A stretch of 64,000 bases of DNA from NCBI RefSeq assembly GCF_019797745.1, contig NZ_VOSI01000001.1, forward strand, positions 246,928 through 310,927, read 5' to 3'. The stretch's first letter is position 1, and each line of letters starts with the position of its first letter. The stretch comes from Edaphocola aurantiacus (GTDB taxonomy: Bacteria; Bacteroidota; Bacteroidia; Chitinophagales; Chitinophagaceae). The notes beneath the pieces are model-generated. The model was not told where the DNA came from. It made no database searches and saw nothing but the letters and a program-made list of their open reading frames with translations. Positions 16,945 through 57,508 of this stretch are shown in pieces. Made by a program: the position numbers and the translations under genes.

Positions 16945-17382
16945 AATTGAGTATTCGCTTACGGGAAACCTAAGACTAGTATTACTGTTTATATCTATAG
17001 CTACCTTTTGCCTTGATGCAAAAGGTACCGCCAAAAAATCAAGGCTGTATAAATCCCTGGCTAAAAATCAAGGTGTCGGCCGGTCGCAAACCAGACTCGC
17101 TGCGCTCAGACAGTGGTTTCCGACTTTATCGACCGAGCCAATGATTTTATTAACGCCGGATTTATAAGGCCTTTCGAGCGATCTGTTCTGTACGGATCGC
17201 TTATTGTTTTCATCACAGCGATAGCCATTTTGGTTGGAGATGCGATCGTTGAGCAGCGAACGCGTCACACGTTAAGCTCAAACGATCAATGCACGCAACG
17301 GTACAAAATGGCGGTGCCTTGCAATCGCCTTGATGAAAACAAAGGCATTTTTGGTCCTTTTGTTGCCGGACAAAAGGACGAA
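16945..17382 (+). mobile_element. Dispersed MITE-like repeat, copy A (right end lost)
   Basis: Starts AATTGAGTATTCGC, close to the left terminal repeat of copy C. Inside are the left hairpin CCTTTTGC/GCAAAAGG (17004-17025), two ATCAAGG boxes, a central stem with GATCGTTGAGC (17244-17254) opposite GCTCAAACGATC (17276-17287), CCATTTTG/CAAAATGG arms (17225-17232 and 17304-17311), and the right hairpin GTCCTTTTGT/ACAAAAGGAC (17354-17379). After about 17382 the similarity to copies C and D stops and the terminal inverted repeat is missing. It carries no convincing gene; frames inside it recur only because the DNA recurs. Confidence 0.85.
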
Positions 17383-17585
17383 CAACAAGGCTGCATACAT
17401 GCATCCTGTCCATTCATACAAAATATGTCGAGCATTCTCCACAAAACACAAACAATTGATTTTCAATGAAAAACAACACCATACTACCCTCTCTATATAA
17501 TACACAAAATAATGAAAAAAGTCAAGCGTAAACGCCCCGAAATATTAGCCGTAAATCTACGCTGGATAAGGTTTAAACGGCATTA
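17383..17585. other. Gene-free stretch after repeat copy A
   Basis: About 200 bases of AT-rich DNA with no frame I can support and no strong hairpin. It joins the broken end of the repeat to the promoter of the AT-rich gene at 17619. Confidence 0.5.
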
Positions 17586-38451: not shown

Positions 38452-38710
38452 AAATGTATATCGACCTTTAGGGAACAAAGTATAATTGCTATCTACTTAC
38501 TCATTTGTACCTCATTTCTTTTGCTACCTTTTGCCTTGATGCAAAAGGTACCGCCAAAAAATCAAGGCTGTATAAATCCCTGGCTAAAAATCAATGTGTC
38601 GGTCGGTCGCAAACGCAGACTCGCTGCGCTCAGACAATGGTTTCCGACTTTATCGACCGAGCCAATGATTTTATTAACGCCGGATTTATAAGGCCTTTTA
38701 AAGCGATCCG
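38452..38710 (+). mobile_element. Dispersed MITE-like repeat, copy B (truncated)
   Basis: Left hairpin CCTTTTGC/GCAAAAGG at 38527-38548, then the ATCAAGG box and the structured block with GGTCG...CGACC, ending at GGCCTTTTAAAGCGATC around 38710. The left end (AAATGTATATCGACC) is diverged and the whole right half, including the right hairpin and terminal repeat, is missing. It abuts the 3' end of the convergent flavin reductase gene and, with the terminator, fills 38386-38722. Confidence 0.8.
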
Positions 38711-38722
38711 TTCGAAAAAAGA

Positions 38723-43936: not shown

Positions 43937-43996
43937 AAGGTGATTTAACTATGCCTACAGTAAAAGTAAGAAAATAAGAAAGGATATAATTAAATT

Positions 43997-44478
43997 AACT
44001 GAGTATCCGCTTAAAGGAAACAAAGTCTAGCATTATGATTTAAGTAGCTTATATCTCTATTGCTACCTTTTGCCTTGATGCAAAAGGTAGCGCCAAAAAA
44101 TCAAGGCTGTATAAATCCCTGGCTAAAAATCAATGTGTCGGCCGGGTCGCAAACCAGACTCGCTGCGCTCAGACAGTGGTTTCCGACTTGATCGACCGAG
44201 CCAATGATTTTATTAACGCCGGATTTATAAGGCCGTTCGAGCGATCTGTTCTGTACGGATCGCTTATTGTTTTCATCACAGCGATAGTCATTTTGGAGTG
44301 GAGCTGCGATCGTTGAGCATCGAACGCATCATACGTTAAGCTCAGGCGATCAATGCACGCAATGGTACAAAATGGTGGTGCTTTGCAATCGCCTTGATGA
44401 AAACAAAGGCATTTTTGGTCCTTTTGTTGCCGGACAAAAGGACGAATAAAATAGTTACCTAAATGCGGATAGTCAGTT
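43997..44478 (+). mobile_element. Dispersed MITE-like repeat, copy C (complete, type copy)
   Basis: 482 bp. Left end AACTGAGTATCCGCTTAAAGG and right end, read inverted, AACTGACTATCCGCATTTAGG are near-perfect terminal inverted repeats. The element is flanked by TAAATT on both sides (43991-43996 and 44479-44484), a 6-bp target duplication. Inside: left hairpin CCTTTTGC/GCAAAAGG (44066-44087), a large branched fold, and right hairpin GTCCTTTTGT/ACAAAAGGAC (44418-44443). No transposase is encoded, so it would depend on one elsewhere in the genome. Confidence 0.88.
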
Positions 44479-44633
44479 TAAATTAATTACAGGCATTAAA
44501 GCACTATATATTTATAGCCGGGAAATATAAAACAGCCTTGAGAAAAAGATGCATCTCCGCTGCAGTTGATATAATAAGAAGCGCTACCCTTCGAGGCTCG
44601 AAGGGTATGTAAAATTATATGAACACTTAATCC
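44479..44633. other. Gene-free stretch with a hairpin downstream of corA
   Basis: The right TAAATT flank of the repeat is followed by AT-rich DNA and an inverted repeat TACCCTTCGAG/CTCGAAGGGTA (44585-44607), 27 nt past the corA stop on the minus strand. It lacks a good T-run, so it is at best a weak terminator. Confidence 0.5.
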
Positions 44634-56964: not shown

Positions 56965-57010
56965 AAAAAAGGTAATGGCAGGAAGCGTTCTTCCTGCCAT
57001 TACCTTTTTT
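56965..57010. terminator. Second, bidirectional terminator
   Basis: AAAAAAGGTAATGGCAGGAA and TTCCTGCCATTACCTTTTTT form a long perfect stem. Repeat copy D is inserted just after its T-run. Confidence 0.88.
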
Positions 57011-57016
57011 TATATA

Positions 57017-57491
57017 AACTGACTATCTGCATGTAGTCAACTATCTTATTCGTCCTTTTGTCCGGCAACAAAAGGACCAAAAATGCCTGTTTTCATCAAG
57101 GCGATTGCTAGGCACCACCATTTTGTACCGTTGCGTGCATTGATCGTTTGAGCTTAACGTGTAACGCGTTAGGAGCTCAACGATCGCAGCTCCACTCCAA
57201 AATGGCTATCGCTGTGATAAAAACAAGTAAGCGATCCGTACTGTACAGATCGCTCGAAAGGCCTTATAAATCCGGCGTTCATAAAATCATTGGCTCGGTC
57301 GATCAAGTCGTAAACCACTGTCTGAACGCAGTGAGTCTGGTTTGCGACCGGCTGACACCTTGATTTTTAGCCAGGGATTTATACAGCCTTGATTTTTGGG
57401 CGGTGCCTTTTGCATCAAGGCAAAAGGTAGCCATAAAAAGTAATTCGAGGGAAAAGGTAAATCTTTGTTTCCTGTAAGCGGGTAATCAGTT
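57017..57491 (-). mobile_element. Dispersed MITE-like repeat, copy D (complete, inverted)
   Basis: 475 bp in the opposite orientation to copies A-C. Ends AACTGACTATCTGC (57017) and, inverted, AACTGATTACCCGC (57491). It is flanked by TATATA on both sides (57011-57016 and 57492-57497), again a 6-bp duplication. Hairpins GTCCTTTTGT/ACAAAAGGAC at 57052-57077 and CCTTTTGC/GCAAAAGG at 57406-57427. With the terminators it fills 56891-57508. The duplication abuts the terminator's T-tract. Confidence 0.88.
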
Positions 57492-57508
57492 TATATAAAG
57501 TTGTCGAA

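Follow-up and report, generated by a model that had tools for sequence, protein, structure and literature searches.

A gene-less IS1595-type MITE family in Edaphocola aurantiacus, its likely partner transposon and its structured interior

The window analysed here is a continuous 64 kb stretch of the genome of Edaphocola aurantiacus. Within it, a repeat of 480 bp, copy C, occupies positions 43998 to 44477 on the forward strand and has no transposase gene. Its limits follow from its sequence and its flanks, and the element is absent at the orthologous site in a second genome of the same genus, referred to here as G001. Copy C begins with the terminal inverted repeat ACTGAGTATCCGC (43998 to 44010, forward strand) and closes with ACTGACTATCCGC (44465 to 44477, reverse strand), both located by pattern search and flank comparison. 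On either side lies the 8 bp target duplication TTAAATTA, at 43990 to 43997 on the left and 44478 to 44485 on the right, as judged from the sequence and the comparison of flanks. The left part of the interior contains a module of predicted structure on the forward strand. It consists of a hairpin with the loop CTTGAT (hairpin 1, 44062 to 44091), predicted and supported by covariation across genomes; the constant sequence ATCAAGG (44100 to 44106), which is the complement of that loop and might form a pseudoknot with it; and a long imperfect stem, GGCTGTATAAATCC ... GGATTTATAAGGCC (44105 to 44234), from the predicted fold and the pairing of its arms across genomes. A right-hand hairpin with the loop TGCCGG is predicted at 44418 to 44443, also on the forward strand.

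A second complete copy, D, lies on the reverse strand at 57018 to 57490 and is likewise absent from G001. It is flanked by matching copies of TTATATAA at 57010 to 57017 and 57491 to 57498. Sequence comparison identifies two further relatives on the forward strand, a partial copy that has lost its right end (16945 to 17385) and a stretch of interior alone, with hairpin 1 and the long stem and no MITE ends (38514 to 38713). The window therefore holds four members of the family, as an earlier sequence-only reading had counted, and two of them are complete. That reading had also placed inverted ends and flanking repeats here, and both are present. The letters TAAATT around copy C and TATATA around copy D do stand on both sides, each as the inner part of the 8 bp TTAAATTA and TTATATAA, respectively. 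The element it had drawn at 43997 to 44478 is real, with limits corrected to 43998 to 44477 because the outermost base at each end is target. The copies examined are short, have inverted ends with the consensus ACTGASTATCCGC, and have no transposase gene in their interior.

A search of the E. aurantiacus genome with copy C found the repeat at about 40 separate places (47 rows), a lower bound, as 40 of 77 first-look candidates were scored. The hundreds of copies once expected have not been seen. The copies range from full-length elements with 80 to 95% identity to copy C down to fragments. The sequence AACTGANTATCCGC, allowing one mismatch at most, occurs 58 times in the genome, against a single occurrence of the reversed pattern. 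Within the window, when as many as 3 mismatches are allowed, there are 27 occurrences against a mean of 15.2 in shuffled sequences, of which 1 in 100 reached 27; this is a modest enrichment. Copy C was matched in 9 of the 39 genomes of relatives searched, the E. aurantiacus genome being among the 39. Long matches are confined to E. aurantiacus, G001 and a further genome, G002, and the other genomes match interior parts only.

The same ends are common to forms of 100, 165, 165, 307 and 425 bp. Eight forms of 100 to 165 bp, from E. aurantiacus and G001 together, have lost most of the interior but retain both ends. Their flanking 8-mers agree with one mismatch or fewer in four of the eight, and exactly in one. 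Otherwise similar MITE copies carry one of two kinds of leader, at about bases 20 to 65 (the L017 type and the L001 type), which suggests exchange between MITE copies.

The length of the target duplication was determined from copies that have both ends (4 or fewer mismatches each and 6 or fewer together), 80 to 620 bp between them, and the inner motif. This filter passed 26 elements in E. aurantiacus, 28 in G001 and 1 in G002. Three copies with both ends, L008, L013 and L024, were excluded from the duplication count by the inner-motif requirement; judged by eye, the flanks of L008 agree at 7 of 8 bases and those of the other two disagree. With the ends set at AACTGA, exact 6-mers flank 19 of the 26 E. 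aurantiacus copies, against 0.20 expected from mismatched flank pairs. A duplication of 6 bp, as in the sequence-only reading, was at first accepted and was dropped once the outermost bases proved to follow the flanks. E. aurantiacus and G001 together have 31 copies with perfect 6-mers, and on each side the outermost base agrees in 29 of them with the base just past the opposite flank (table 22/1/1/7 with Fisher p = 2.3e-5, and table 26/1/1/3 with Fisher p = 0.0035). This base is mostly A, with T in some copies, and the non-consensus bases track the flank as well (left-side T in 7 of 8, right-side A in 3 of 4). Since the outermost base follows the flank, it belongs to the target and not to the element.

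When each end is shifted inward by one base, exact 8-mers are found at 17 of the 26 E. aurantiacus copies (0.16 expected) and at 10 of the 28 in G001 (0.04 expected). Lengths of 7 and 9 are not favoured. The nine E. aurantiacus copies without an exact 8-mer have 1 to 5 mismatches and include L020, which is split by a nested transposon; in G001 the exact 8-mer is missing from 18 of 28. Among the 17 exact E. aurantiacus 8-mers, the first base is T in all and the last base is A in 13. Judged by its flanks, the duplication is 8 bp, AT-rich and mostly of the form T......A, which replaces the TAN4-like target first described. The counts bear out the proposal of a non-coding MITE family with duplications at independent sites. 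A 6 bp duplication had looked anomalous for an IS1595-type element, and the correction to 8 bp does away with this: IS1595 members are usually flanked by 8 bp duplications, as stated in an excerpt of the literature (PMC8101967).

Empty sites in a close relative had been suggested as a check on mobility, and they were found. G001 is 96% identical to E. aurantiacus over the neighbouring 5.9 kb, and its orthologous sites for copies C and D each have a single copy of the target and no element. Conversely, a 103 bp element of G001 is absent from the corresponding site in the window. The MITE L020 and the 14.7 kb transposon nested in it are both absent at the G001 site. Other insertions are seemingly common to the two genomes, among them L019 with L210 (TTAAGAAA) and L017 with L224 (TACAATTA), whose outer flanks are alike. 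Together, the shared and unshared insertions indicate that movement seemingly took place both before and after the two genomes separated.

None of the 26 E. aurantiacus insertions is inside an open frame of at least 90 aa, by a simple gene call. Nine are between convergent frames and five between divergent ones, as raw counts. A perfect hairpin with 14 bp arms, the longest arm tested, is present within 70 bp of 8 of the 26 (raw count): L002, L007, L017, L021, L025, L026, L030 and L071. These hairpins are possibly terminators.

The sequence-only reading had proposed a search for a full-length relative that has a transposase gene, and the same genome does contain a larger element of this kind, with similar ends. 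This transposon (G000:C3:246386-261063, where G000 is E. aurantiacus) is 14,678 bp long, has identical 28 bp inverted ends, and is flanked on both sides by the 8 bp sequence TAATTGAT. It was seen as one copy, and its limits rest on its ends, its duplication and its nesting within the first bases, at the tip, of the MITE copy L020. The transposon end and the MITE left end share 25 of 28 bases. The MITE right end agrees with the transposon ends in the 13 bp repeat only and differs from both beyond it. The end at C3:261064 runs into an open frame of 319 aa, and its mate is 14.7 kb away at C3:246386. The 319 aa protein matches the IS1595 transposase domain PF12762 (1.6e-22) and the IS1595 zinc ribbon PF12760 (6.8e-7), both above the curated cut-offs, as well as the NCBIfam model NF033547, 'IS1595 family transposase' (3.6e-55). 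D134 and D229 are invariant in nine aligned proteins, and the expected third acidic position is N267 in all nine; a DDN catalytic form exists in the IS1595 family.

The transposon, which has a G+C content of 33% (L120, L073), carries about 13 kb of other DNA. This cargo includes a TIR-domain protein near the PADLOC models PDC-S66 (6.4e-104) and ThsB (1.3e-49), a retropepsin-like protein and a LuxR-type regulator. The partner is thus a large cargo transposon, with a predicted TIR-domain gene resembling those of candidate defence proteins.

Relatives of the transposase at E <= 1e-40 are present in 5 of the 294 genomes of the family, E. aurantiacus itself being one of the five. No homologue at this threshold was found in the same-genus genomes G001 to G004, of which G001 is rich in MITEs. 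No short IS that combines the two kinds of MITE end was found. In G001, an insert of about 4.2 kb (L078:347-4584) splits a MITE at a point between roughly positions 46 and 56 of that MITE. Its IS1595-type transposase was considered as the driver and rejected, being 22% identical to that of the 14.7 kb transposon and interrupting the MITE. For L091, a transposon-type end in G001, no convincing mate turned up in the 21.7 kb searched downstream; one candidate, with 3 mismatches, lies at C1:971663. In a second genus, G117 has an element of 4,036 bp that ends in ACTGACTATCTAC and is flanked on either side by TAATGCTT; its related transposase is interrupted and split over two open frames.

Further afield, transposase relatives in named genomes are 36 to 44% identical in the 80 loci, out of 311, that were considered, and occur in Flavivirga, Draconibacterium, Algoriphagus, Polaribacter and others. 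The best named relative among the loci listed is 44 to 46% identical, in a list that may omit genomes near E. aurantiacus. In the multi-copy relatives examined, from Flavivirga, Draconibacterium and Flavobacteria BAL38, the ends read TGAATATCCG or TGATTGTCCG. When a single set of offsets is applied throughout, exact 9-mers flank 5 of 6 copies in BAL38 and 2 of 3 in NK2020, and exact 8-mers flank 6 of 13 in Flavivirga and 4 of 11 in Draconibacterium. Shorter matches fit 6 BAL38, 2 NK2020, 7 Flavivirga and 5 Draconibacterium copies. The duplications of these named relatives are less regular than those of the E. aurantiacus MITE.

On this evidence, the repeat is a MITE, very probably moved in trans by the IS1595-type transposase of the 14.7 kb transposon or by that of a close relative, and the partner's own enzyme is the likely mobiliser. 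A MITE family and the transposon that probably drives it are thereby placed in a single genome. In the mechanism proposed, the transposase of the 14.7 kb transposon, or a close relative, would bind the MITE ends and cut them, and the cut ends would be joined to target strands staggered by 8 bases, giving rise to the 8 bp duplication.

It is rather unlikely that the mobiliser was some other element, lost or unsampled and possibly also of IS1595 type, to which the 14.7 kb transposon is only a cousin; such an explanation overlaps in part with the 'close relative' just allowed for. It would account for the many MITEs in G001, which has no close homologue of the transposase, and for a MITE right end that is unlike the transposon's. 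However, copies C and D are present in E. aurantiacus, where the transposase is found, and absent from G001, where none reaches the threshold, and the MITE and the transposon agree in end sequence, in duplication length and in an AT-rich T......T/A target.

Very improbable is the view that the 480 bp repeat is mainly a structured repeat, acting as RNA or DNA, which spreads through recombination or through single-strand processing of the sort proposed for REP elements, the flanking repeats being incidental. The predicted folding of copy C is indeed far better than that of shuffled sequences on both strands (z -9.58 and -9.48), compensatory changes across genomes are seen in the interior module, and there are copies of the module without ends. 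This view nevertheless leaves the precise 8 bp duplications and the empty sites unexplained, as it does the eight short forms that keep both ends with the interior mostly lost. It bears on the module only and leaves the MITE aside. Hardly credible at all, despite the 19 exact 6-mers obtained with ends at AACTGA, is a 6 bp duplication made by an unusual IS1595 variant or another IS family, given that the outermost base tracks the opposite flank and that the shifted ends give 8 bp.

The E. aurantiacus repeat, read as mobilized by the partner transposon or a close relative, is a further IS1595-type MITE, a known kind of element. Among the hosts of comparable elements, H. walsbyi is archaeal and Cardinium belongs to the Bacteroidota. 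Like members of the IS1595 family, the partner has a zinc ribbon and a DDE domain, and the duplications are of 8 bp; unlike them, the MITE has no gene and the partner has about 13 kb of extra DNA. One comparable case is an ISHwa6-linked MITE of H. walsbyi, tabulated with a length of 165 bp, 7 copies and an 8 bp repeat (PMC3852290). It too is gene-less and of IS1595 type, but it is shorter and has fewer copies, and a structured interior is unmentioned in the excerpt of its description. MITECca01 of Cardinium is, in the excerpt describing it, an abundant MITE that shares the ends of a resident IS, although its parent is of the IS982 family (PMC9769881). BrickBuilt of Porphyromonas gingivalis is described, again in an excerpt, as a MITE-like element that has trapped an unrelated repeat; in that case it is a 23 nt tandem repeat, and the ends resemble ISPg1 and ISPg9 (PMC4596501). 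Among the titles and abstract openings listed, no paper was found on an IS1595-type MITE in Bacteroidota or on the interior module, and the latter may be undescribed.

Evidence for a conserved fold is weak within the MITE family, where 12 of 115 predicted pairs show a kept double change, and stronger between genomes. For the latter comparison, hairpin 1 was counted on ungapped arms in 22 sequences and on an equal-length set of 15, with the kinship of the sequences left in. In the 22, 210 of 220 cells are paired, whereas 1000 shuffles gave 169.6 on average and never more than 187. In the 15, 97.3% of cells are paired against 53 to 63% when the arms are slid, and the covariation score was matched by no shuffle. 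On two of five measures in this set of 15, hairpin 1 is not clearly above shuffles (double-change pairs, reached by 30 of 500 shuffles; further pair types, by 88 of 500). For the long stem, a stricter, post hoc test found a genome's own 3' arm in 25 of 37 genomes, against 245 of 1332 (18.4%) for mismatched arms; a cruder pairing score was barely above its control (12.6 against 11.6 of 16, with 37 of 38 genomes usable). The closing pairs of this stem vary among GGC/GCC, GAC/GTC and GCC/GGC. In the predicted folds of five examples, hairpin, linker and long stem follow one another in the same order.

The module has a wider distribution than the MITE. A model covering the hairpin and ATCAAGG, built from 15 sequences and with E-values from a short calibration, matched 75 of 296 genomes of the phylum at E <= 0.001, in 39 of 139 genera, with E. 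aurantiacus and its genus included. Four of the phylum genomes have at least 21 matches each. The exact module pattern is present in 16 of 295 genomes of the class, and a control pattern in one. The string CTTTTGCCTTGATGCAAAAG, which the sequence-only reading recognised from other Bacteroidota, belongs to this module and so occurs beyond the MITE; in the outside loci examined it is without MITE ends. In none of 38 module loci outside the MITE was a MITE end (2 or fewer mismatches) found within 500 bp in the expected place, where copy C has one; 41 loci had been named, and 2 were left out for not fitting the pattern. Module loci outside the window include L046, L256, L263 and L226-L275. Tandem rows with a spacing of about 270 to 420 bp are seen in L263, L264 and L265 (G596, G386 and G526). 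In Rfam, nothing in the window stretch reached the gathering score, which is 91 for the best match, one of 17.2 bits at a lax threshold; the module matched no family in 10 loci.

It is possible, and is offered tentatively, that the MITE serves to carry a structured element, hitherto undescribed, which occurs across the phylum in many copies, sometimes in tandem, and which acts as folded RNA or folded single-stranded DNA. Its upkeep by compensatory change is what would point to action in a folded form. Such an element would comprise the CTTGAT-loop hairpin, the linker, the loop-pairing ATCAAGG and a long stem that has GGC/GCC as its closing pairs and contains a conserved internal loop. The module would then be an example of a widespread structured sequence that a MITE is able to spread. 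The pseudoknot letters ATCAAGG are constant, being fixed by the search pattern, and show no covariation. In 2 of 26 aligned MITE copies, L011 and L110, the hairpin loop is inverted (ATCAAG for CTTGAT), as if the palindrome had been flipped, and this speaks against the pseudoknot being needed in the MITE.

A general scan for hairpins with a loop complement found four matches in the window, all of them family members, and, in other loci totalling about 238 kb, four that do not resemble them, so the scan says nothing beyond the interior module. Between the copies of E. aurantiacus and G002, the best kept parts are the module stems at about 44103-44132 and 44192-44221 (identity 0.94) and a stretch near 44397-44424 (0.94), and the least kept are the leader, at 0.47, and the middle, at 0.55-0.62. 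The right-hand hairpin may be a mirrored version of the module, an arrangement that recurs in only one other stretch, L045.
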